Of a DNA stretch of 64,000 bases, positions 38,774-48,438 are shown piece by piece; the first letter of the stretch is position 1, and each line of letters opens with the position of its first letter. The stretch comes from Kineococcus mangrovi (GTDB taxonomy: Bacteria > Actinomycetota > Actinomycetes > Actinomycetales > Kineococcaceae): the NCBI RefSeq assembly GCF_041320705.1, contig NZ_JBGGTQ010000005.1:1-64000 (forward strand). The letters are read 5' to 3'. The position numbers and the translations under genes were made by a program. Below the pieces are notes generated by a model. It searched no databases and had not been told where the DNA came from. It worked only from the letters and a program-made list of their open reading frames with translations.

Positions 38774-38847
<74 letters not shown>

Positions 38848-38923
38848 CCGGATCGCAGAGCGGGTGTCCACCGACAGGTGGGCACCCGCTCCGTCGTTCC
38901 CACGGGCCCCGCGTCCGCGGGCC

Positions 38924-38937
38924 GGGACCTAGGGCCC
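38924..38937 (+). promoter_or_regulatory. DosR-like box before the first flavin-barrel gene
   Basis: GGGACCTAGGGCCC, a 14-bp near-dyad close to the DosR consensus GGGACTTnnGGCCC. Its centre is 42.5 bp before ATG 38973. CAACCT (38961-38966) lies 6 nt before that ATG as a possible -10, so the box would overlap the -35 position of a leaderless promoter. Confidence 0.65.
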
Positions 38938-38972
38938 TGTCCCGGGGGCGCCGACCGGGTCAACCTCGGGGC

Positions 38973-39413
38973 ATGCACTGCTCGAGCGCGCTGCCGCCGC
39001 GGGACTGCCGCCGGCTGCTGGGGTCGTCCGGGAACGGCAGAGCCGTCTTCACGGAGGCCGCGCTGCCCGCCGTCCTGCCCACGGAGTACGTCGTCTGGGG
39101 CGACAGGGTCTGGTTCCCCGTGCCGGTGGGCAGCTCGCTGCGCCACCACGTCGACGGCGCGGTCCTGGCGTACCACGTCGACCACGTCGAGCCGTCGGAA
39201 CGGTCCGGGTGGAGCGTCACCGTGGTGGGCCCCTGCCGCACCGTGCCCCGGCCGCACAGCCCCACCGCGGCGTGCCGGCTGGTGGAGGGGACCGACCACC
39301 GGTTGCTGGCGCTGGACATGGCGCACTTCACGGGCCGGGAGCTGGGACGGGCGGAGCTGCCCGGCCCCGCCCGCGCCCCCGGGGACCCCCTGGACGCGCT
39401 GCGGCCCGCCTGA
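38973..39413 (+). CDS. pyridoxamine-5'-phosphate-oxidase-like flavin-barrel protein
   Basis: 146 aa. The pattern of small split-barrel FMN proteins is seen: LPPRDCRRLLGSSGNGRAVFT, then PAVLPTEYVVWGDRVWFPV, and an H-rich VDGAVLAYHVDHVE strand. Members bind FMN, F420 or haem; substrate unknown. A proteins of this fold belongs to the M. tuberculosis DosR regulon (Rv0080). A DosR-like box lies upstream. It is a distant paralogue of the gene at 39644. Confidence 0.75.
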   Translation: MHCSSALPPRDCRRLLGSSGNGRAVFTEAALPAVLPTEYVVWGDRVWFPVPVGSSLRHHVDGAVLAYHVDHVEPSERSGWSVTVVGPCRTVPRPHSPTAACRLVEGTDHRLLALDMAHFTGRELGRAELPGPARAPGDPLDALRPA

Positions 39414-39422
39414 GGGCGGACG

Positions 39423-39510
39423 CACCCGACGACCCCACGACCCCACGACCCCACGACCCCACGACCCCACGACCCCACGACCCCACGACCCCACGACCCG
39501 ACGACCCGAC
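39423..39510 (+). repeat. 8-bp tandem repeat (VNTR candidate)
   Basis: Eight exact copies of GACCCCAC at 39431-39494, preceded by one CACCCGAC and followed by two GACCCGAC. It begins 9 bases after the stop of the first flavin-barrel gene and ends just before the Shine-Dalgarno of the small ORF at 39531. The period is not a multiple of three. Confidence 0.92.
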
Positions 39511-39530
39511 GACCCACGCAGGAGGAGCAC

Positions 39531-39647
39531 GTGCAGGAGGACCGGTTCGGGCGAGGGGCGCTCCGCGCGCAGGTGCGGGGGCTGGCACCGTGGTGGGCCG
39601 GTCCTGGCCCGGCCCACCGGGCACCGGCCGCGTCGTGGTGGGGGTGA
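39531..39647 (+). CDS. possible 38-aa small protein coupled to the second flavin-barrel gene
   Basis: GTG 39531 follows GGAGGAG by 3-5 nt, among the best ribosome-binding sites in the window. The product is basic and Trp-rich (two WW pairs: LAPWWAGP and ASWWG). Its TGA overlaps GTG 39644 in GTGA, the coupling used throughout this genome. It may be a real micropeptide or a leader that drives translation of the next gene. No homologue is known to me. Confidence 0.45.
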   Translation: MQEDRFGRGALRAQVRGLAPWWAGPGPAHRAPAASWWG

Positions 39648-40093
39648 GCGCGGTGCCGGTGCCGCCGGACCCGCAGCGGCTCGACGCCGGCCGGTGCCGG
39701 CACCTGCTCGGCCCCGGCGGTGTGGGGCGCGTGGTCTTCACCGCCGGCTCCCTGCCGGCCGTGGCGACCACGAACTACGCCGTCCACGGCGGCCGCCTGT
39801 GGTTCCGCACGGCGGCGGGCACCGCGCTGGCGCGGTCGGTGACGAACGCGGTCGTCGCCGTCAACGTCGACGCGTCGGGTCCCGCGTCGGGGGAGGCGGG
39901 CGCGCTCGCGGACGGCGGGGGGTGGACGGTCACGGTCACGGGCCGGTGCCGGGCGCTGGACGACCCGCCGGAGGCGGTCCGCGGCGCGCTCGACGCCTGG
40001 GCGCCCGGGGTCCGGGAGCAGTTCTTCTGCGTCGACCTCGCCCTGCTGAGCGGGCAGCGCACGCCCGCGCGAGCGCCTGCGCCGCCCTTCTGA
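39644..40093 (+). CDS. pyridoxamine-5'-phosphate-oxidase-like flavin-barrel protein (second copy)
   Basis: 149 aa. CRHLLGPGGVGRVVFTAGSLP and ATTNYAVHGGRLWFRT repeat the layout of the gene at 38973 with low identity. GTG 39644 is chosen because it overlaps the stop of the small ORF; GTG 39635, 39638 and 39653 are in the same frame. I could not find a convincing DosR-like box directly before it. Role probably flavin- or F420-linked redox chemistry in low oxygen. Confidence 0.72.
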   Translation: MSAVPVPPDPQRLDAGRCRHLLGPGGVGRVVFTAGSLPAVATTNYAVHGGRLWFRTAAGTALARSVTNAVVAVNVDASGPASGEAGALADGGGWTVTVTGRCRALDDPPEAVRGALDAWAPGVREQFFCVDLALLSGQRTPARAPAPPF

Positions 40094-40136
40094 GGCCCCT
40101 GCGGCCGGCCGGCCGCCGCCGCGTCCGCCCCGGGCC

Positions 40137-40142
40137 TAGGCT
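40137..40142 (+). promoter_or_regulatory. -10 box of the response-regulator gene
   Basis: TAGGCT about 33 nt before ATG 40175, giving an about 26-nt leader with GGAGGGAC as ribosome-binding site. Confidence 0.45.
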
Positions 40143-40174
40143 GCCGGGGGCACCGATCGGAGGGACCCACCGCC

Positions 40175-40813
40175 ATGACCACCGTCAGGGTGTTCCTGCT
40201 CGACGACCACGCCGTGGTCCGGGCGGGGTTGCGCGCCGTCCTGGAGGCCGACCCCGGGCTGGAGGTCGTGGGGGAGGCGGGGACCGTGGCCGCGGCGGTG
40301 GAGGGGATCACCCGGACGCGACCCGACGTCGCGGTCCTGGACGGCCGGTTGCCGGACGGTTCCGGCATCGACGTCTGCCGCCGGGTCCACCTGCTCTCCC
40401 CGGGGACGCGCACGCTCGTCCTGACCTCCTACGACGACGACGAGGCCCTGCTGGCGGCCGCCCTCGCCGGAGCGTCGGGGTACCTGCTCAAGGAGATCGG
40501 GACGACCGACCTGGTGGGCTCGGTGCGCGCCGTGCACGCCGGTGCCAGCCTGCTCGACCCGGCGGTCGTGGAAGCGGTCCGACGGCGGGTGGAGGACCCG
40601 TTGGCGGCCGACCCGCGGCTGGCCGGTCTCACCCCGCAGGAGCGGCGGGTGCTGAAGCTGCTGAGCGAGGGGTGGACCAACCGCCGGATCGGGGCGGAAC
40701 TGCACCTGGCCGAGAAGACCGTCAAGAACTACGTGTCCAACGTCCTGGCGAAGCTGCAGCTCAGCAGCCGGACGCAGGCCGCGCTGTTCACCACCGCCCA
40801 CGGACGGGGTTGA
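40175..40813 (+). CDS. devR: DosR/DevR-type response regulator (NarL/LuxR family)
   Basis: 212 aa. The receiver domain (1-120) has acidic DD at 10-11, phospho-acceptor D56 (VAVLDGRLPDG), T84-like TSYDDD and Lys in LLKEIG. The LuxR helix-turn-helix (about 147-205) reads LTPQERRVLKLLSEGWTNRRI, then LAEKTVKNYVSNVLAKL, almost the DosR recognition helix (EKTVKNYVS). It should bind the GGGAC-type boxes nearby. The probable partner kinase is at 46029. Confidence 0.88.
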   Translation: MTTVRVFLLDDHAVVRAGLRAVLEADPGLEVVGEAGTVAAAVEGITRTRPDVAVLDGRLPDGSGIDVCRRVHLLSPGTRTLVLTSYDDDEALLAAALAGASGYLLKEIGTTDLVGSVRAVHAGASLLDPAVVEAVRRRVEDPLAADPRLAGLTPQERRVLKLLSEGWTNRRIGAELHLAEKTVKNYVSNVLAKLQLSSRTQAALFTTAHGRG

Positions 40814-40847
40814 CGTGCCGGCCGCCGCCCGTCCGGGCCGGCCGGCC

Positions 40848-40861
40848 GGGACGTTGGACCC
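40848..40861 (+). promoter_or_regulatory. DosR-like box before phosphoketolase
   Basis: GGGACGTTGGACCC, centre 43.5 bp before GTG 40898. CAGGTT (40885-40890) ends 7 nt before that GTG, the same arrangement as at cydA. Confidence 0.68.
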
Positions 40862-40897
40862 TGGTGCGCGCGGGCTCCCCCCGGCAGGTTGACGCGG

Positions 40898-43393
40898 GTG
40901 AGACCGCCGCAACCCGGGGACCTCCCCGTCAGCACCACGTCGACCGCCTCCACCTCCCGGGCCACCCCCTGGCCCGACCCCGGGGACGTCCACCCCCCGA
41001 CCACCGACGACGCCCTGGCACCGGGGGGTCTGCCCGAGGACGAGCTGGCGGCGCTGGACGCCTGGTGGCGCGCCGCGAACTACCTGACGATCGGCCAGAT
41101 CTACCTGCAGGACAACCCCTTGCTGCGCCGGCCGTTGCGGGCCGAGGACGTCAAGCCCCGGCTGCTGGGTCACTGGGGGACGAGCACCGGCCTGTCCTTC
41201 GTCTACGCCCACCTGTCCCGGCTGGTCCGGCGGACGGGGCAGCAGGCGGTGTACCTGGCCGGCCCGGGCCACGGGGGTCCCGCGCTGGTGGCGGCGAGCT
41301 GGCTGGAGGGCACGTACGACCGGTTCTTCCCCGCCGTCACCCAGGACGCCGAGGGGATGCGGCGGTTGTTCCGGCAGTTCTCCTCCCCGGGCGGCATCCC
41401 CTCCCACGCCTCGGTCACGACCCCGGGGTCGCTGCACGAGGGCGGGGAACTGGGGTACGTCCTCGTCCACGCCTTCGGCGCGGTCATGGACAACCCCGAC
41501 CTGCTGGCCCTGGCCGTCGTGGGCGACGGCGAGGCCGAGACCGCCCCGCTGGAGGGGGCGTGGAAGGGGATCTCCTTCCTCAACCCCGCGCGCGACGGGG
41601 CGGTCCTGCCCGTGCTGGACCTCAACGGCTGGAAGATCTCCGGGCCCACGGTCCTGGCCCGCAAGGACCCCGCGCTCGTGCGCTCGCTGCTGCAGGGGCA
41701 CGGCTACCACGTCCTGGAGGTCACCGGTGAGGACCTGCCCGGGATGCACCACCGGTTCGCCGGTGCCCTCGCCGAGGCCCACCACCGGATCCGCGCCATC
41801 CAGCACGCCGCCCGCACGGGGCAGGCCCCCGACGGCGTGCCCGCCTGGCCGGTCGTCGTGCTGCGGTCGCCGAAGGGCTGGACGGGACCGCGCACGGTCG
41901 ACGGGGTCCAGGTCGAAGGGACCTGGCGGGCCCACCAGGTCCCGTTGTCCGGGGTGAAGGAGAACCCCGCGCACCTGCGGCTGCTGGAGGAGTGGATGCG
42001 GTCCTACCGCCCGGAGGAGCTCTTCGACGCCGACGGCCGGCCCACGGCGCTCGTGCGGGCCAACGACCCGCAGGAGGCGCTGCGGGTGTCGGCGAGCCCG
42101 CACGCCAACGGTGGGCTCCTCGCCCGTGACCTCGTGCTGCCGCCGACGGGGGACTACGCCGTGGAGGTCCCGCGGCCGGGCGCCGTCCGCGCCGAGTCCA
42201 CCCGGCGGCTGGGGGAGTACCTGCGCGACGTCTACCGCGCCAACCCGACGACCTTCCGCCTGTTCTGCCCCGACGAGACGGGCAGCAACCGCCTCGGTGC
42301 GGTGTTCGAGGCGAGCGACCGCACCTGGATGGAGCAGACCGTCCCCGGCGACGTCGCGCTGTCGCCGTCGGGGCGGGTGGTGGAGGTCCTGTCCGAGCAC
42401 AACTGCCACGGTTGGCTGGAGGGGTACACCCTGACCGGCCGGCACGGGGTGTTCGCCACCTACGAGGCGTTCGCCATGGTCAGCGCCTCCCAGACCGTCC
42501 AGCACGGCAAGTGGCTGGAGGAGGCCGAGAAGCTGCCGTGGCGGGCGCCGGTCCCGAGCCTGAACGTCCTGCTCACGTCCACGGCCTGGCGCAACGACCA
42601 CAACGGCTTCAGCCACCAGGGACCGGGTCTCATCCAGACGGCCCTCACGCAGCGCGCCGGGGTCTCCCGCGTCTACCTGCCACCGGACGCGAACTGCCTG
42701 CTCGAGGTCGCCGACCACTGCCTGCGCACCCGGTCGCGGATCAACCTCGTCGTCATCGACAAGCAGCCCCAGCTGCAGTACCTCTCGGCGTCCGAGGCAG
42801 CCGAGCACGTCTCCCGTGGAGCCGGTGCCTGGGACTGGGCCGGGACCGACGACGGGTCGGCCGACCCCGACGTGGTGCTGGCGTGCGCCGGGGACGTGGT
42901 GACGATGGAGACCGTCGCCGCTGCGCAGATCCTCGCCGAGCGGTTGCCCCGGCTGCGGGTGCGGGTCGTGAACGTGGTCGACCTCATGCGGCTGCACCGC
43001 CCCGTCGACCACCCGCACGGGATGGACGAGTTCACCTTCCGGGAACTCTTCACCGACCACGTCGACGTGGTGTTCGCGTTCCACGGTTTTCCCGGGGCGA
43101 TCCACCAGATCGTGCACGGTCGTCCCGCGGCCGGGCGGTTCCACGTCCGGGGTTTCGTGGAGGAGGGCACGACCACCACGCCCTTCGACATGGTCGTCCT
43201 CAACCGTGCATCCCGTTACCACCTCGTCCTGGACGCGTTGAACAACGCGTCCAGGGCGCCTGCGGGCGCCGACGACCTGCGTCGCTGGTGCCTGGCCCAG
43301 CTCGAACGGCACGAGACCCACGTCGTGGAGCACCTCGAGGACCTCCCCGAGGTGCGGGACTGGACGGTGCCGCTGCGCGGCAACGCCTCCTGA
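40898..43393 (+). CDS. xfp: xylulose-5-phosphate/fructose-6-phosphate phosphoketolase
   Basis: 831 aa, normal length. The N-terminal thiamine-diphosphate half has GPGHGGPA and the TPP motif GDGEAET starting at G209; conserved SHASVTTPGS, NGWKISGPT and HNGFSHQGPG follow. It cleaves xylulose-5-phosphate or fructose-6-phosphate to acetyl phosphate, giving ATP without oxygen. GTG 40898 is preferred since box, -10 and start then match cydA exactly; the N-terminal 30 residues are variable. Confidence 0.95.
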   Translation: MRPPQPGDLPVSTTSTASTSRATPWPDPGDVHPPTTDDALAPGGLPEDELAALDAWWRAANYLTIGQIYLQDNPLLRRPLRAEDVKPRLLGHWGTSTGLSFVYAHLSRLVRRTGQQAVYLAGPGHGGPALVAASWLEGTYDRFFPAVTQDAEGMRRLFRQFSSPGGIPSHASVTTPGSLHEGGELGYVLVHAFGAVMDNPDLLALAVVGDGEAETAPLEGAWKGISFLNPARDGAVLPVLDLNGWKISGPTVLARKDPALVRSLLQGHGYHVLEVTGEDLPGMHHRFAGALAEAHHRIRAIQHAARTGQAPDGVPAWPVVVLRSPKGWTGPRTVDGVQVEGTWRAHQVPLSGVKENPAHLRLLEEWMRSYRPEELFDADGRPTALVRANDPQEALRVSASPHANGGLLARDLVLPPTGDYAVEVPRPGAVRAESTRRLGEYLRDVYRANPTTFRLFCPDETGSNRLGAVFEASDRTWMEQTVPGDVALSPSGRVVEVLSEHNCHGWLEGYTLTGRHGVFATYEAFAMVSASQTVQHGKWLEEAEKLPWRAPVPSLNVLLTSTAWRNDHNGFSHQGPGLIQTALTQRAGVSRVYLPPDANCLLEVADHCLRTRSRINLVVIDKQPQLQYLSASEAAEHVSRGAGAWDWAGTDDGSADPDVVLACAGDVVTMETVAAAQILAERLPRLRVRVVNVVDLMRLHRPVDHPHGMDEFTFRELFTDHVDVVFAFHGFPGAIHQIVHGRPAAGRFHVRGFVEEGTTTTPFDMVVLNRASRYHLVLDALNNASRAPAGADDLRRWCLAQLERHETHVVEHLEDLPEVRDWTVPLRGNAS

Positions 43394-43400
43394 GAACCCG

Positions 43401-43414
43401 GGGACCTTGGTCCC
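43401..43414 (+). promoter_or_regulatory. DosR-like box before cydA (perfect dyad)
   Basis: GGGACCTTGGTCCC, a perfect 14-bp palindrome-like dyad apart from its centre, centre 43.5 bp before GTG 43451. CAGGGT (43438-43443) ends 7 nt before that GTG. Confidence 0.72.
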
Positions 43415-43450
43415 TGGGCTCGCCGGCTGCGGTCGGGCAGGGTCGAGGAC

Positions 43451-44890
43451 GTGGACGCCCTCACCTTCGCCCGGCTGCAGTTCGGGACCCTCACCCTGTA
43501 CCACTTCTTCTTCGTCCCGCTGACGATGGGGCTGGTGCCGCTCGTGGCGGGTTTCCAGAGCGCCTGGCACCGCAGCGGCGACGAGAAGTGGCTGCGGTTG
43601 ACCAAGCACTTCGGCAAGCTCTTCCTCATCACCTTCACGGTCGGCCTGGTGACCGGCATCGTGCAGGAGTTCCAGTTCGGCATGAACTGGAGCGAGTACT
43701 CCCGGTTCGTCGGTGACGTCTTCGGCGCACCCCTGGCCATCGAGGGCATGGCCGCGTTCTTCGTGGAGTCCACGTTCCTGGGGCTGTGGGTCTTCGGCTG
43801 GGACCGGCTGCCCCGTCCGGTGCACCTCGCGTGCATCTGGGTGGTCGCGTTGGGCACGTGGGCCTCGGCGTACTTCATCCTGGCCGCGAACTCCTTCATG
43901 CAGCACCCGGTCGGGGTGACCTACGACGCCACGAGGGGCCGGGCCCAGCTCACCGACATCGTCGCCCTGCTGACGAACTCCACGACGCTGGCGGCGTTCC
44001 CGCACGTCGTCACCGGCGCGCTCGTCCTGGCCTCGACGGCCGTCGCCGCGCTCGGGCTGTGGTCGGCGGCCCGGGCGCGGCGGCGGGCCGACGACCGGGA
44101 GGCACAGGCCTTCCGGTCCGCCGCCCGGGTCGCGATGGTCGTGCTGCTGGTCTCCGGCGTCGGGGTCGCGGTCTCCGGCGACGCCCAGGCGCGCCTGATG
44201 TTCCAGCAGCAGCCGATGAAGATGGCGGCCGCGGAAGCCCTGTGCGAGAGCGAGGACGGTGCCGGGTTCAGCCTCTTCGCCGTCGGCGACGTGGCGAACT
44301 CCTGCGACGTCAAGCAGGTGACGGTCCCCGGGCTGACGGCGTTCCTGGCGACGAACTCCTTCTCGGGGCACCTCGAGGGGGTGAACGACCTCCAGCGCAG
44401 CTACGCCGAGCGCTACGGCGCGGGCGACTACGTGCCGGTGCTGCCGGTGACCTACTGGTCGTTCCGCCTGATGATCGGGTTCGGCGCGTTCAGCGCGGTG
44501 CTGGCGGTCCTCGGGTTGTGGGCCACCCGGGCAGGGCGGGTCCCGCTGTCGCGTCGCGGGGCCCGGCTGGCGCTGCTGACCGTCCCGATGCCGTTCCTGG
44601 CGAACTCGTTCGGCTGGATCTTCACCGAGATGGGGCGCCAGCCGTGGGTCGTGGCGCCCAACCCGACAGGACTGGACGCGGTCCGGATGCTGACCCGTGA
44701 CGGGGTGTCCCCGGTCGGGACGGCGACGGTCCTCACCTCGCTGACCGTGTTCACGCTCCTGTACGGCGTGCTGGCCGTCGTGTGGTTCACGCTGGTCCGC
44801 CGGTACGCCGCGCTGCCCCTGCCCGACGTCGACGCCGCCGCCATCGGCCCGGCCGCCGACGACGACGCCCCGCTCGCCTTCACCTACTGA
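43451..44890 (+). CDS. cydA: cytochrome bd quinol oxidase subunit I
   Basis: 479 aa with about nine membrane helices. LQFGTLTLYHFFFVPLTMG holds the haem-ligand His near residue 19; the GWIFTEMGRQPW signature and the short Q loop of the non-enterobacterial type are present. It reduces O2 to water with high affinity at the membrane. It starts 57 nt after phosphoketolase behind a DosR-like box. cydCD assembly genes are not in the window. Confidence 0.96.
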   Translation: MDALTFARLQFGTLTLYHFFFVPLTMGLVPLVAGFQSAWHRSGDEKWLRLTKHFGKLFLITFTVGLVTGIVQEFQFGMNWSEYSRFVGDVFGAPLAIEGMAAFFVESTFLGLWVFGWDRLPRPVHLACIWVVALGTWASAYFILAANSFMQHPVGVTYDATRGRAQLTDIVALLTNSTTLAAFPHVVTGALVLASTAVAALGLWSAARARRRADDREAQAFRSAARVAMVVLLVSGVGVAVSGDAQARLMFQQQPMKMAAAEALCESEDGAGFSLFAVGDVANSCDVKQVTVPGLTAFLATNSFSGHLEGVNDLQRSYAERYGAGDYVPVLPVTYWSFRLMIGFGAFSAVLAVLGLWATRAGRVPLSRRGARLALLTVPMPFLANSFGWIFTEMGRQPWVVAPNPTGLDAVRMLTRDGVSPVGTATVLTSLTVFTLLYGVLAVVWFTLVRRYAALPLPDVDAAAIGPAADDDAPLAFTY

Positions 44891-44906
44891 TCACGGAGCC
44901 CGTCTC

Positions 44907-45941
44907 GTGGAACTCACCACCGTCTGGTTCATCCTCATCGCCGTCCTGTGGACCGGGTACCTGGTCCTGGAGGGTTTCGACTTCGGCGTCGGCATGCTCC
45001 TGGCGCCGCTGTCGCGCGACGACACCGAACGCCGGACCCTGCTGGCCACGATCGGGCCGGTGTGGGACGGCAACGAGGTCTGGCTGCTGGTCGCCGGCGG
45101 CGCGACCTTCGCCGCGTTCCCGGAGTGGTACGCCTCGATGTTCTCCGGCTTCTACCTCGCCCTGCTGCTCGTCCTCGTCGCGCTCATCCTTCGCGCGGTG
45201 GCCTTCGAGTTCCGCGGCAAGGTCGACGACCCGGTGTGGCGGGCCCGCTGGGACCGGTGCATCGCGGTCGGCTCCTGGGTGCCGTCCCTGATCTGGGGGG
45301 TCGCCTTCGCGAACCTCGTGCAGGGCGTGCCGATGGACGCCGAGCACCGGTTCACCGGGACGCTGCTGACCCTGCTGAACCCCTACGCCCTCCTCGGCGG
45401 GCTCGCCCTGCTCACGGTGTTCCTGGCCCACGGGGCGAGCTTCCTCGCGCTGCGGACGCTGGGGCAGGTGCGCGAGCGCGCCGCCCGGGCCGGGGACGTG
45501 CTCACGCCGGTGGCGCTGCTCGTGGCCGGCTCGTGGGCGGTGCTGACGCAGCTGCTGCACGGCCGGACCTGGACGTGGGCCGCGGTGGCCGTCGCCGCCG
45601 GCGCGCTGGCCGGTGCGGTGGTGGCGGGGCGCCGCCGGGCGGAGGGTCGCGCCTTCGCGGCAACCGCCGTCGCGATCGTCGCCGTCGTCGTGCTGGTCTT
45701 CGGCAGCCTCTTCCCGGACGTGATGCCGGCCAGCACCGACCCGGCGCACGGCCTGACGGTGACGAACGCGAGCTCCGGGCACTACACCCTGGTGGTCATG
45801 ACCTGGGTAGCGGCCGTCCTGACCCCCCTGGTCCTGCTGTACCAGGGCTGGACGTACTGGGTCTTCCGCCGCCGGATCGGCGTGCACCACGTCCCGGCGT
45901 CGACCGGGCTGCCCGCGGCGCGGGCGACGAGCGGTCGCTGA
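44907..45941 (+). CDS. cydB: cytochrome bd quinol oxidase subunit II
   Basis: 344 aa, about eight helices. Starts with the family signature WFILIAVLWTGYLVLEGFDFG and continues with IGPVWDGNEVWLL and the FEFRGK segment. Pairs with CydA. Lies 16 nt after cydA with GGAG upstream, so it is co-transcribed. The stop is followed 87 nt later by the sensor kinase on the same strand. Confidence 0.96.
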   Translation: MELTTVWFILIAVLWTGYLVLEGFDFGVGMLLAPLSRDDTERRTLLATIGPVWDGNEVWLLVAGGATFAAFPEWYASMFSGFYLALLLVLVALILRAVAFEFRGKVDDPVWRARWDRCIAVGSWVPSLIWGVAFANLVQGVPMDAEHRFTGTLLTLLNPYALLGGLALLTVFLAHGASFLALRTLGQVRERAARAGDVLTPVALLVAGSWAVLTQLLHGRTWTWAAVAVAAGALAGAVVAGRRRAEGRAFAATAVAIVAVVVLVFGSLFPDVMPASTDPAHGLTVTNASSGHYTLVVMTWVAAVLTPLVLLYQGWTYWVFRRRIGVHHVPASTGLPAARATSGR

Positions 45942-46028
45942 GGTCCCGCCCCACCGCGGGGCCAGACCCCGGTGTGCTTCGATGCGCCTGTCGAGCACCC
46001 GGCAGGGGCCCGGGGCCGAGGGGACGGG

Positions 46029-47807
46029 ATGACTTCGAAGACACCGCAGACACCGCAGACGCCGCGGACTCCGCAGGACCGCCGCACCGGGGGCGAGCAG
46101 ACCGTGACGTTCCCGCAGGTGGCGCGGCTCGAGCTCGACGACCTGCTGCAGCAGCTCATCGACCGCGCGCAGGACGTCCTGGCCACCCAGGGGCGCTTGC
46201 AGGGGCTGCTGGCCGCGACCCGCGCGATCAGCTCCGACCTGGACCTGCCCACCCTGCTGCGGCGCATCACCCAGGCCGCGTGCGAGCTGCTCGGAGCCCG
46301 CTACGGCGCCCTGGGGGTGGTGGGTGAGGACGGGGGGCTGAGCCGGTTCATCACCGTCGGGGTCGAGGAGGAGACCGCCCGCGGCATCGGCCGCCTCCCC
46401 CGGGGCGAGGGGGTGCTCGGCGAACTGGTCCGCCACCCCGAGCCGCTGCGGCTGCCGGACCTGTCCCAGCACCCCGCGGCGGCGGGCCTGCCGCCGGGGC
46501 ACCCGCCCATGCGGTCCTTCCTCGGGGTGCCCGTCCGCGTGCGCGACGCGGTCTTCGGCAACCTCTACCTGAGCGAGAAGACCGCCGGGGGGCAGGCAGG
46601 GGGGCAGCGCGCCGACTTCACGGCCGAGGACGAGGAGCTGCTGGTCGCGCTGGCCTCGGCGGCGGGCGTCGCGATCGAGAACGCGCGGCTGTTCGACGTC
46701 GCCGAGCGCCGGCAGCGGTGGCTGAGCGCGTCGGCGGACATCGTCCGCGACCTGGTGGGGGAGGACGTCTCCCCCCTGCACGCCGTCGCCGCGCGCGCGG
46801 CCGCCGCGGCCGAGGCGGACCTGGCGGTGGTGGTGCAGACGGACGCCCGGGACGACCTGCGCGTGGTCGCGGCGGTGGGCGCCGGCGGCGAGGCGCTGCG
46901 CGGGGCCCGGTGGGTGGTCCCGGACGGCCCGGCCGCCGCGGTCCTGTCCGGGTGCGAGGACGGCGTCGTCGCCGAGGCCGCCGTCGCGGGCCTGGGCGCC
47001 ACGACGCCCGGCGTGCCCGACGGCACGGCGCTCGTGGTCCGTGTCGCCCCCGGCGCCGGGGTGGACCGGCGCTTCCTGTGCCTGTCCCGCGGCCGCGGCG
47101 GCCGGGCGTTCGACGGGCAGGACCTGGCGATGGCCGCCGACTTCGCGATCCACGTGGGGCTCGCGGTGGAACTGGGGCGGGCCCAGGCGGACCGTCGCCG
47201 GGTGAGCATGCTGGACGACCGCGACCGCATCGCGCGCGACCTGCACGACCAGGTCATCCAGCAGCTGTTCGCCGGGGGCCTGCGCATGTCGGCGCTGGCG
47301 GCCCGCACCCGGGAGCCGGGGACGGCCGCGGCGCTGCGCGAGCTCATCGACGACGGCGACGACACGATCCGGACGATCCGCGGGACGATCTTCCAGCTGA
47401 AGGACTCCGAGCAGGACACGGACGCCTGCGTGCTCCTGCGCGACCTGGCGCTGGAGTTCTCCGACGTCCTCGGTCTGGAGCCCGTCCTCACCCACGACGG
47501 GCTCCGGCCCCTGCCGGTCCCGCACGAGGTCGCCGACCACCTGGGCGCGGCGCTGCGCGAGGTCCTGTCGAACTGCGCCCGCCACGCGGCGGCCGACCGG
47601 GTCCGGATCCACTCCGCGGTCCGCGCCGGGGAGCTGTCGGTGACGGTGACCGACGACGGCGTCGGCATCGGTCCGACCACGAGGCGCAGCGGCCTGGAGA
47701 ACCTGCGCGTGCGCGCCGAGGACCTCGGGGGCCGCTGCGTCGTGACGTCCCCCGCCGGGGACGGGCGGGGCACCAGCGTCGAGTGGGTCGTGCCCCTGCC
47801 GGGGTGA
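46029..47807 (+). CDS. devS: DosS/DevS-type GAF-GAF histidine kinase, probable haem sensor
   Basis: 592 aa. GAF-A (about 65-215) keeps GHPPMRSFLGVPVRVRD; H158 aligns with the proximal haem ligand H149 of M. tuberculosis DosS. GAF-B follows (about 245-385). The HisKA_3 dimerisation site is DRIARDLHDQVIQQL with phospho-acceptor H406; the ATPase domain has EVLSNCARHA and TDDGVGIG. It should sense O2, NO or redox and phosphorylate the regulator at 40175. ATG 46029 starts a TPQ-repeat leader coded by 9-base repeats. Confidence 0.88.
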   Translation: MTSKTPQTPQTPRTPQDRRTGGEQTVTFPQVARLELDDLLQQLIDRAQDVLATQGRLQGLLAATRAISSDLDLPTLLRRITQAACELLGARYGALGVVGEDGGLSRFITVGVEEETARGIGRLPRGEGVLGELVRHPEPLRLPDLSQHPAAAGLPPGHPPMRSFLGVPVRVRDAVFGNLYLSEKTAGGQAGGQRADFTAEDEELLVALASAAGVAIENARLFDVAERRQRWLSASADIVRDLVGEDVSPLHAVAARAAAAAEADLAVVVQTDARDDLRVVAAVGAGGEALRGARWVVPDGPAAAVLSGCEDGVVAEAAVAGLGATTPGVPDGTALVVRVAPGAGVDRRFLCLSRGRGGRAFDGQDLAMAADFAIHVGLAVELGRAQADRRRVSMLDDRDRIARDLHDQVIQQLFAGGLRMSALAARTREPGTAAALRELIDDGDDTIRTIRGTIFQLKDSEQDTDACVLLRDLALEFSDVLGLEPVLTHDGLRPLPVPHEVADHLGAALREVLSNCARHAAADRVRIHSAVRAGELSVTVTDDGVGIGPTTRRSGLENLRVRAEDLGGRCVVTSPAGDGRGTSVEWVVPLPG

Positions 47808-47850
47808 GGGGGCCGGCGCCGCGAACTCGGGGACCCGGGGGCGGTTCCCG

Positions 47851-48438
47851 TCACGTCGGGGTCCCGCCGCCTCCGCCGGCGACGCGCAGCGGCCACCAGG
47901 ACGGGGCCAGCTGGGCGCAGGAGGTCAGGAAGGAGTCGAGGTCGCGCTGCTCGTGCGCCAGCCACACGGACAGCGCGCCCACGGTCCCCTCCGCGACGTA
48001 CCGGGCCACGAGCTGCGGGTCGGTGACGGGGGAGGGGACGGCGCCCCGTTCGAGCAGCAGCAGGACCGACGCCGCGAAGTGGTCGGCCAGGAGCGTGCGC
48101 AACGTCCCGTCGGCGGGGCTGGCCAGGCTGCGCAGGTACACGGACCGGTGCCGTTCCAGGTGCTCCAGGACCTCCCGCGTCGTCGCGCCCACGGCGGCCG
48201 TCCAGTCCCGTGCGGCCGGGCCACCGAGGTGCCGTTCGCGGGCGTCGTCGAGCTCGTCGCGCAGGACGGAGCGCAACAGCGCCGAGGGGGAGTCGCTGTG
48301 CTCGTAGAACGTGGAGCGGTGGACACCCGCGCAGCGGGCGACCTCGCTGACCGAGAGGGTTTCCGGTGCGTTGTCCGCCGCCAGCTCCAGCACCGCTGCC
48401 GAGAGGCGTTCGAGGCTCCGTCGCGCCCTCGCGTCCAT
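47851..48438 (-). CDS. TetR-family regulator
   Basis: 195 aa. The helix-turn-helix is LSVSEVARCAGVHRSTFYEHS (about 28-48); the rest is a helical ligand domain. It is divergent from the ABC importer genes, which it probably controls; in E. coli the pyrimidine-degradation regulator RutR is also TetR type. ATG 48438 is leaderless: TAGGGT (48450-48445) lies 6 nt before it. Confidence 0.87.
   Translation of the reverse strand: MDARARRSLERLSAAVLELAADNAPETLSVSEVARCAGVHRSTFYEHSDSPSALLRSVLRDELDDARERHLGGPAARDWTAAVGATTREVLEHLERHRSVYLRSLASPADGTLRTLLADHFAASVLLLLERGAVPSPVTDPQLVARYVAEGTVGALSVWLAHEQRDLDSFLTSCAQLAPSWWPLRVAGGGGGTPT

Follow-up and report, generated by a model that had tools for sequence, protein, structure and literature searches.

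The response regulator DosR (DevR) is known chiefly from mycobacterial dormancy. Here, we describe three promoters with DosR-type boxes in a 64,000-nucleotide (nt) stretch of Kineococcus mangrovi DNA (contig NZ_JBGGTQ010000005.1, positions 1 to 64,000, forward strand; hereafter the window), which precede the genes for a PNPOx-like protein (PNPOx-1), a phosphoketolase (xfp), and subunit I of a cytochrome bd oxidase (cydA). Judged by their sequences, they add three single-box promoters, predicted to be leaderless, to the known DosR promoter class, and very probably they are activated by DosR and serve a compact block of low-oxygen genes.

An activator box over the −35 element is the published DevR architecture (PMC3029386; PMC5360333, section 6). 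The Mycobacterium tuberculosis DevR/DosR promoters described there share with the window the type of box sequence, the proximal site over the −35, and a −10 hexamer that deviates from TANNNT (PMC3029386, PMC5360333). The −10 listed for narK2, CAGGGT, is the same hexamer as that before cydA in the window (PMC5360333). The box centres of the M. tuberculosis promoters are T-rich, whereas those of boxes 1 to 3 here are CTAG, GTTG, and CTTG, and the promoters here are predicted to be leaderless. DrrS P2 of M. tuberculosis also has a single DosR site over the −35 and a non-consensus −10, and its authors liken it to class II CRP promoters; it differs in driving a small RNA, not a leaderless mRNA, and in a possible weak second site according to the same account (PMC5360333).

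The OsdR/OsdK system of Streptomyces coelicolor likewise comprises a DevR-like regulator with palindromic sites and a partner kinase, and its described targets include a PNPOx gene (SCO0214, site listed at −50), a nitroreductase, and stress genes (PMC5069765). Its consensus, AGGGCCGATCGGCCCT, has GGGCC arms where the boxes here have GGGAC, and 43 sites are predicted there, against three boxes with the present layout (PMC5069765). None of the words cydA, phosphoketolase, and cytochrome appears in the text of that paper (PMC5069765). cydAB is a predicted target here but lies outside the DevR regulon of M. smegmatis, where loss of devR is stated, with data not shown, to leave cydA induction unaffected (PMC7739888). 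Among the matches listed in open-licence literature, we found no leaderless fixed-gap DosR promoters outside mycobacteria, no DosR control of phosphoketolase, and no DosRS-cydAB block.

Three promoters with one layout

The boxes, their spacing, the gene families, the block boundaries, and the recurrence of the layout were all computed. The elements of the three promoters are as follows.

38924..38937, + strand: DosR-type box 1, GGGACCTAGGGCCC, centre at −42.5 from ATG 38973 (PNPOx-1)
38961..38966, + strand: −10 hexamer CAACCT, 23 nt after box 1, ending 6 nt before ATG 38973
40848..40861, + strand: DosR-type box 2, GGGACGTTGGACCC, centre at −43.5 from GTG 40898 (xfp)
40885..40890, + strand: −10 hexamer CAGGTT, 23 nt after box 2, ending 7 nt before GTG 40898
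43401..43414, + strand: DosR-type box 3, GGGACCTTGGTCCC, centre at −43.5 from GTG 43451 (cydA), 7 nt after the xfp stop
43438..43443, + strand: −10 hexamer CAGGGT, 23 nt after box 3, ending 7 nt before GTG 43451

The preliminary description of this DNA had placed the box centres 42.5, 43.5, and 43.5 bp before the starts and the ends of the hexamers 6, 7, and 7 nt before them, and these positions were exact to the base on re-reading. It had not included the gap from the end of the box to the CAnnnT hexamer, which is 23 nt in all three promoters. Each dyad is a near-perfect inverted repeat with 5-bp arms; box 3 is perfect, and the right arm reads GGCCC in box 1 and GACCC in box 2. With the −10 ending 6–7 nt before the start codon, leaderless geometry is present (as geometry alone), and no Shine-Dalgarno (SD)-like sequence was seen by eye at the usual place before the three starts. 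Provided that RNA begins at the start codon, the proximal box position near −42/−43 overlaps the −35. The start of PNPOx-1 agrees with leaderless homologues in other genomes. For xfp, no other in-frame ATG, GTG, or TTG was seen by eye between GTG 40898 and the conserved domain, and an earlier TTG at 40889 overlaps the −10 hexamer.

The composite GGGACNNNNGNCCC-N22-24-YANNNT-N5-8-RTG has exactly three matches on both strands of the window, namely the three promoters. In 100 dinucleotide shuffles of the window, it occurred 0.04 times on average and twice at most, and none of the 100 reached three. The box alone, with up to 1 mismatch, is found 88 times in the window, which is fewer than the 123 expected. 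Genome-wide, GGGACNNNNGNCCC shows no excess (104+92 matches, against 113+113 for the reversed control). The subset with A or T at the two central positions has 11 matches at 9 places in 4.36 Mb, against 1+1 in the control. In a genome this rich in GC, the box by itself is frequent without being enriched, so the signal lies in the layout and not in the dyad.

Three of the nine A/T-centred places are the promoters described here. The other six lie 137–476 codons inside stop-to-stop frames of 219–735 codons, and the coding signal from GC content at third codon positions (GC3) around them is clear at L003, L007, and L009, moderate at L001 and L008, and weak at L002. With no excess of plain boxes and with the other A/T-centred boxes inside open frames, a wider regulon was not found in the genome. 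Weak boxes may nevertheless occur elsewhere in it; the plain-box matches number 196 in total, of which the first 100 were listed and not inspected singly. In the 250 bp upstream of each of the three matches to universal stress proteins, every box candidate has at least 2 mismatches.

Recurrence of the layout across the class

In 296 genomes of the class, GGGACCTTGGTCCC occurs at 96 places in 72 genomes, compared with 20 places for the reversed control. Surroundings were read at 95 places, the window's own being left out. Downstream of the box, NAnnnT hexamers accumulate at 23 nt (15) and 24 nt (9), whereas other gaps average 2.2 and never exceed 7. These 24 peak hexamers span 11 families, and the nine at 24 nt come from nine different families. 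The opposite side of the box shows no clear peak, with 4 and 5 hexamers at 23 and 24 nt over a background with a mean of 2.5 and a maximum of 12. When the hexamer is followed 6–7 nt on by a start codon, 14 rows fall at 23 nt and 4 at 24 nt; the 84 other gaps average 0.51 rows, and none has more than 6.

Leaderless-like rows with the start 5–8 nt after the hexamer number 19 and come from eight families, with 11 rows from the family f27. The genes behind them are ten PNPOx genes (four Pfam-checked, six by eye), two DosR-like, one DosS-like, and one cydA gene, as well as two nitroreductase-like frames, one of them below the Pfam cut-off; the remaining three open spurious-looking short frames of 33, 70, and 86 amino acids. 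Sixteen genomes of another genus (g16), which we presume to be Mycobacterium, have 26 GGGACTWNNGTCCC sites, with 10 hexamers at 23–24 nt on either side and 3 in leaderless geometry. In the congener G001, the PNPOx orthologue (56%) stands at another locus than in the window and shows the same layout, GGGACCAAGGACCC-N23-CACGCT-N6-GTG.

A leaderless-like rise at 20 nt (6 rows) was rejected as a further peak, as it consists of five near-identical sites of one family and one other site. A smaller rise of leaderless geometry at 45–46 nt fits the distal box of two-box promoters. At the loci L225, L230, L231, and L246, the box lies 45 nt from the −10, in the place of a distal second box, before genes that by eye are dosR-like or universal-stress-protein-like.

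The DosR sites could be real and the transcripts leadered, with RNA starting elsewhere and CAnnnT present by chance. The looseness of the NAnnnT motif leaves room for such an explanation, as do Demequina loci in which the box lies at about −70 before a gene with an SD-like AGGAGG, and the hexamers that also occur 45–46 nt from the box, where a distal box would be placed. However, no SD-like sequence was seen at the usual place before the three starts, and the 23-nt gap is found three times here and once in the congener, at the very distance where leaderless geometry peaks class-wide. We consider leadered transcripts unlikely.

First base of the −10 hexamer

The preliminary description contrasted the C that opens the three hexamers with a T in constitutive leaderless genes of the window. 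This contrast was borne out only in part. Among ten candidate starts of the window with NANNNT 6–7 nt upstream (frames of at least 200 codons), the first base is T in only three, C in four, and G in three; xfp and cydA are two of the four with C, and PNPOx-1 is not among the ten.

A shortage of T is seen more widely. T comes first in 2 of the 24 downstream peak hexamers, in 1 of 10 in the g16 set, and in 0 of the 3 promoters here, compared with about 58% in leaderless controls (642 predicted genes across the window and 80 cydA loci, with a phase-matched background; a background mixing reading-frame phases gave 46% and was not used). On both sides of the box together, T is first in 7 of 33 hexamers, with a binomial p of 2e-5 against 58% for sites that are related; when families are counted in place of sites, T is the leading or a tied base in 4 of 14 families (p about 0.03). 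Since the sites are related and the by-family p is about 0.03, the weakened −10 as a general feature of DosR promoters appears moderately supported. The proposal that a weakened −10 and an activator box over the −35 mark a strictly DosR-dependent promoter is supported in part, strongly for DosR as the regulator and moderately for the weak −10; strict dependence would be a prediction.

Published mycobacterial data provide a scale for these values. In M. smegmatis, 63% of ANNNT hexamers begin with T, and TANNNT transcripts are reported as more abundant than VANNNT ones (PMC6448022); in M. tuberculosis, TANNNT is given for 73% of primary starts (PMC3898074). Table 2 of PMC5360333 lists seven DosR-dependent −10 regions of M. 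tuberculosis. In our own xAnnnT reading, five of these are CAGTAT (DrrS), CAGGGT (narK2), GATCGT, GATGAT, and AACGAT, and the other two do not fit at the usual distance. The authors of that paper had already raised the possibility of DosR promoters departing from the SigA consensus (PMC5360333).

Regulator and kinase of the DosR/DosS type

The three promoters lie within a block of seven genes that also encodes a regulator and a sensor kinase.

38774..38849, + strand: tRNA-Pro(GGG), conserved left neighbour of the block
38914..47868, no strand: block of seven genes, 8,955 bp, not at the same site in the congener G002
38973..39413, + strand: PNPOx-like protein (PNPOx-1; Pyridox_ox_2, Pfam E 3.4e-15), predicted leaderless
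39644..40093, + strand: second PNPOx-like gene, start approximate with several GTG candidates; the Pfam match lies in the 3' part of the open reading frame 39209-40093
40175..40813, + strand: DosR/DevR-type NarL-family response regulator, SD-like GGAGGGA before the ATG
40898..43393, + strand: phosphoketolase (xfp), by family search
43451..44890, + strand: cydA, cytochrome bd subunit I, one of two copies in the genome
44907..45941, + strand: cydB, cytochrome bd subunit II, by family search
46029..47807, + strand: DosS/DosT-type sensor histidine kinase with GAF, HisKA_3, and HATPase domains

The regulator consists of a receiver and a LuxR/GerE DNA-binding domain. Its closest solved structure is M. 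tuberculosis DevR (PDB 3c3w, E 1.4e-59), followed by VraR (E 1.5e-35), and the recognition-helix string AEKTVKNYVS is identical in the regulator and M. tuberculosis DevR. Asp 56 within VLDGRLP is the candidate phospho-acceptor, and the K..KN residues of the recognition helix are kept; we take their counterparts in M. tuberculosis DevR to be D54, K179, K182, and N183, of which K182 is also named in the literature. The GAF domain of the kinase finds DosT as its best structure (PDB 2vzw, E 1.3e-46), followed by four DevS chains with values ranging to 7e-43. His 158 and Tyr 180 of the kinase GAF domain have the same 22-residue spacing as in DosT, and presumably are the proximal ligand and the distal residue of a predicted heme pocket. 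A search of plasmids for close DosR relatives returned 1193 records, all below 60% identity.

The boxes might instead be read by another NarL-family regulator, as a search of the genome with the regulator gives 28 matches (E up to 0.001), and one congener (G008) has boxes without a close DosR orthologue. However, among the 12 of these 28 matches that were compared, only the block regulator has the EKTVKN helix. When a further 22 regulator loci were compared, namely 11 congener loci and 11 of the remaining 27 own-genome matches, the helix recurred only in the 79%-identical congener copy, and in 7 of the 9 remaining congeners the best regulator match has ENTVKNHVRN. Three of the nine A/T-centred boxes, moreover, adjoin the block regulator, and the rest lie inside open frames. 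We regard control by a different regulator as quite improbable; the neighbouring DosR orthologue as the predicted reader of the boxes is strongly supported.

Proposed mechanism and points against it

Under DosR control, the route from signal to transcript would run as follows. A fall in O2, or a rise in NO or CO, would lead the GAF kinase (46029) to phosphorylate the DosR orthologue (40175), which would then bind the GGGAC-n4-GnCCC box in place of a −35 element. Bound DosR would hold RNA polymerase over a CAnnnT −10 that lacks the first T, and transcription would begin at, or at most 1 nt from, the start codon. The predicted outputs are a cytochrome bd oxidase for low-oxygen respiration, a phosphoketolase for carbon metabolism, and PNPOx-like proteins. 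Since cydB and dosS closely trail cydA, we propose that promoter activation would raise the kinase as well. The regulator gene has an SD-like sequence and no box better than 3 mismatches in 200 bp upstream; therefore, the regulator is likely to be kept at a steady basal level, feedback would run through dosS downstream of cydAB, and the usual autoregulation would be missing or indirect.

This missing box before dosR is one of several findings that weigh against DosR-activated, leaderless promoters. The M. tuberculosis promoters studied in PMC3029386 mostly have two or more boxes, compared with one strong box here. No second adjacent box was found for cydA, and the second-site candidates at −62.5 (PNPOx-1) and −56.5 (xfp) are weak, with 2 mismatches each. 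Since DrrS P2 as published is likewise without a clear second site (PMC5360333), the second-box rule seems not to be universal. Within the class, besides the looseness of NAnnnT, a single family (f27) supplies 10 of the 24 peak hexamers, and of the 14 rows with leaderless geometry at 23 nt, 9 are PNPOx orthologues from this family. NAnnnT is present at 22–25 nt on either side in only 37 of 95 sites, and therefore the layout is one common form and not the sole form. As to the −10, CAnnnT occurs at other starts of the window, and T is first in 5 of 9 hexamers on the opposite side of the boxes, where there is no clear peak. Ordinary promoters of M. marinum show YANNNT, so that CAnnnT is found there too (PMC8022548). 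Finally, a PNPOx fragment in G008 adjoins box-N23-GACCGT without a leaderless start (L306, 1698), and this genome has no DosR match above 47% among the matches listed.

That the dyads are RNA hairpins or terminators and resemble promoters by coincidence is highly improbable, since near-perfect inverted repeats with 5-bp arms, one of them 7 nt behind the xfp stop, would suit such elements but none of the three is followed by a T-run, and the fixed 23-nt gap to a hexamer and a start before three unrelated genes, with the class-wide peak at 23–24 nt, would go unexplained.

DosR-type boxes before cydA genes

Eighty cydA loci were sorted by genus name into those inside and those outside the Mycobacteriales, and the 150 bp before each match were scanned. 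A perfect box precedes cydA in 20 of 40 loci outside the Mycobacteriales and in 1 of 40 within them, against 0.1 expected in each set from mononucleotide shuffles. With up to 1 mismatch, the counts are 32 of 40 (3.1 expected) and 5 of 40 (1.7 expected), respectively. Near the cyd genes, 22 of the 40 non-Mycobacteriales loci, several of them shortened by contig ends, have a DosS-like match (31–53%), and in 17 of these 22 it is accompanied by a DosR-like match (41–56%). The cydA relatives of highest identity among the matches listed are from Quadrisphaera (65%) and Kineosporia (63%). One of the loci (L028), with a one-mismatch box and DosRS-like genes, belongs to a metagenome-assembled genome titled Proteobacteria and is probably a misbinned actinobacterial contig.

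The second, native cydA of K. mangrovi, on contig C7, shares 51% identity with the block cydA, and the best box in its 350 bp has at least 2 mismatches; it may be under another regulator. Upstream of it (L170), there are repeated CGTACTAC/GTCGTAG-like words, which resemble the CTACTACAN..TGTCGTAG palindromes that precede cydA in many mycobacteria.

An accessory block

The congener G002 (Der protein 94% identical) has only 9 nt between the tRNA flank, which corresponds to the window up to 38913, and the TetR flank, which corresponds to it from 47869 on, compared with 8,955 bp here; the converging gene to the right of the block appears from its sequence to be TetR-type. In seven congener regions searched by tblastn (E up to 1e-8; of the 10 congeners, G003, G006, and G007 were left out), no block gene lies next to der, and an orthologue of the TetR-type gene is present in three of the seven. 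Each of the 10 congeners has one cydA, against two in this genome. A close DosR orthologue (79%) occurs in 1 of the 10, G001, beside a phosphoketolase gene at another locus, and the PNPOx pair of G001 lies at a further locus, apart from dosR-xfp. The block is accessory, and it may have been gained here or lost elsewhere. Its GC content per kb (0.68–0.79) is like that of the flanks (0.72–0.78). A classical mobile island was considered and found no support, with no integrase among the seven genes and, among the repeat families found, none joining the block ends. In two congeners, tRNA-Pro and the TetR-type gene are separated by about 2.3 kb of different DNA (L164, 1800-4140; L165, 7290-9690), and therefore the site is variable in the genus.

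Several smaller features were noted. Between the two PNPOx-like genes, a tandem array of ACCCCACG spans 39424-39515 (11.5 copies, 97% match), and the best box upstream of the second gene has 3 mismatches. The match to the G001 PNPOx orthologue carries one TGA at its end, probably the gene's own stop. In G008, a DosS-like kinase gene (46%) is followed after about 90 bp by a perfect GGGACCTTGGTCCC box (L305, 1988).

Implications for DosR regulons

A broader and more tentative proposal, which we put forward as a possibility with some doubt, is that DosR promoters of many actinobacteria are a hard-wired composite, box-N23/24-(C or G)AnnnT-N6/7-start, made dependent on DosR by the missing T and the missing −35. 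Such a composite might form a portable unit of about 52 bp, present here in triplicate with its own regulator and sensor, self-contained and independent of other boxes in the genome.

The layout offers a simple sequence rule for DosR promoters in other actinobacteria: a gap of 23–24 nt, a −10 often without the first T, and a frequent leaderless start. In half of the examined loci outside the Mycobacteriales, a perfect DosR-type box precedes the cytochrome bd genes, whereas published work places cydAB outside the DevR regulon of M. smegmatis. As a 9-kb block that unites the regulator, the sensor, and three target promoters, this locus would be a small model of a whole DosR regulon.

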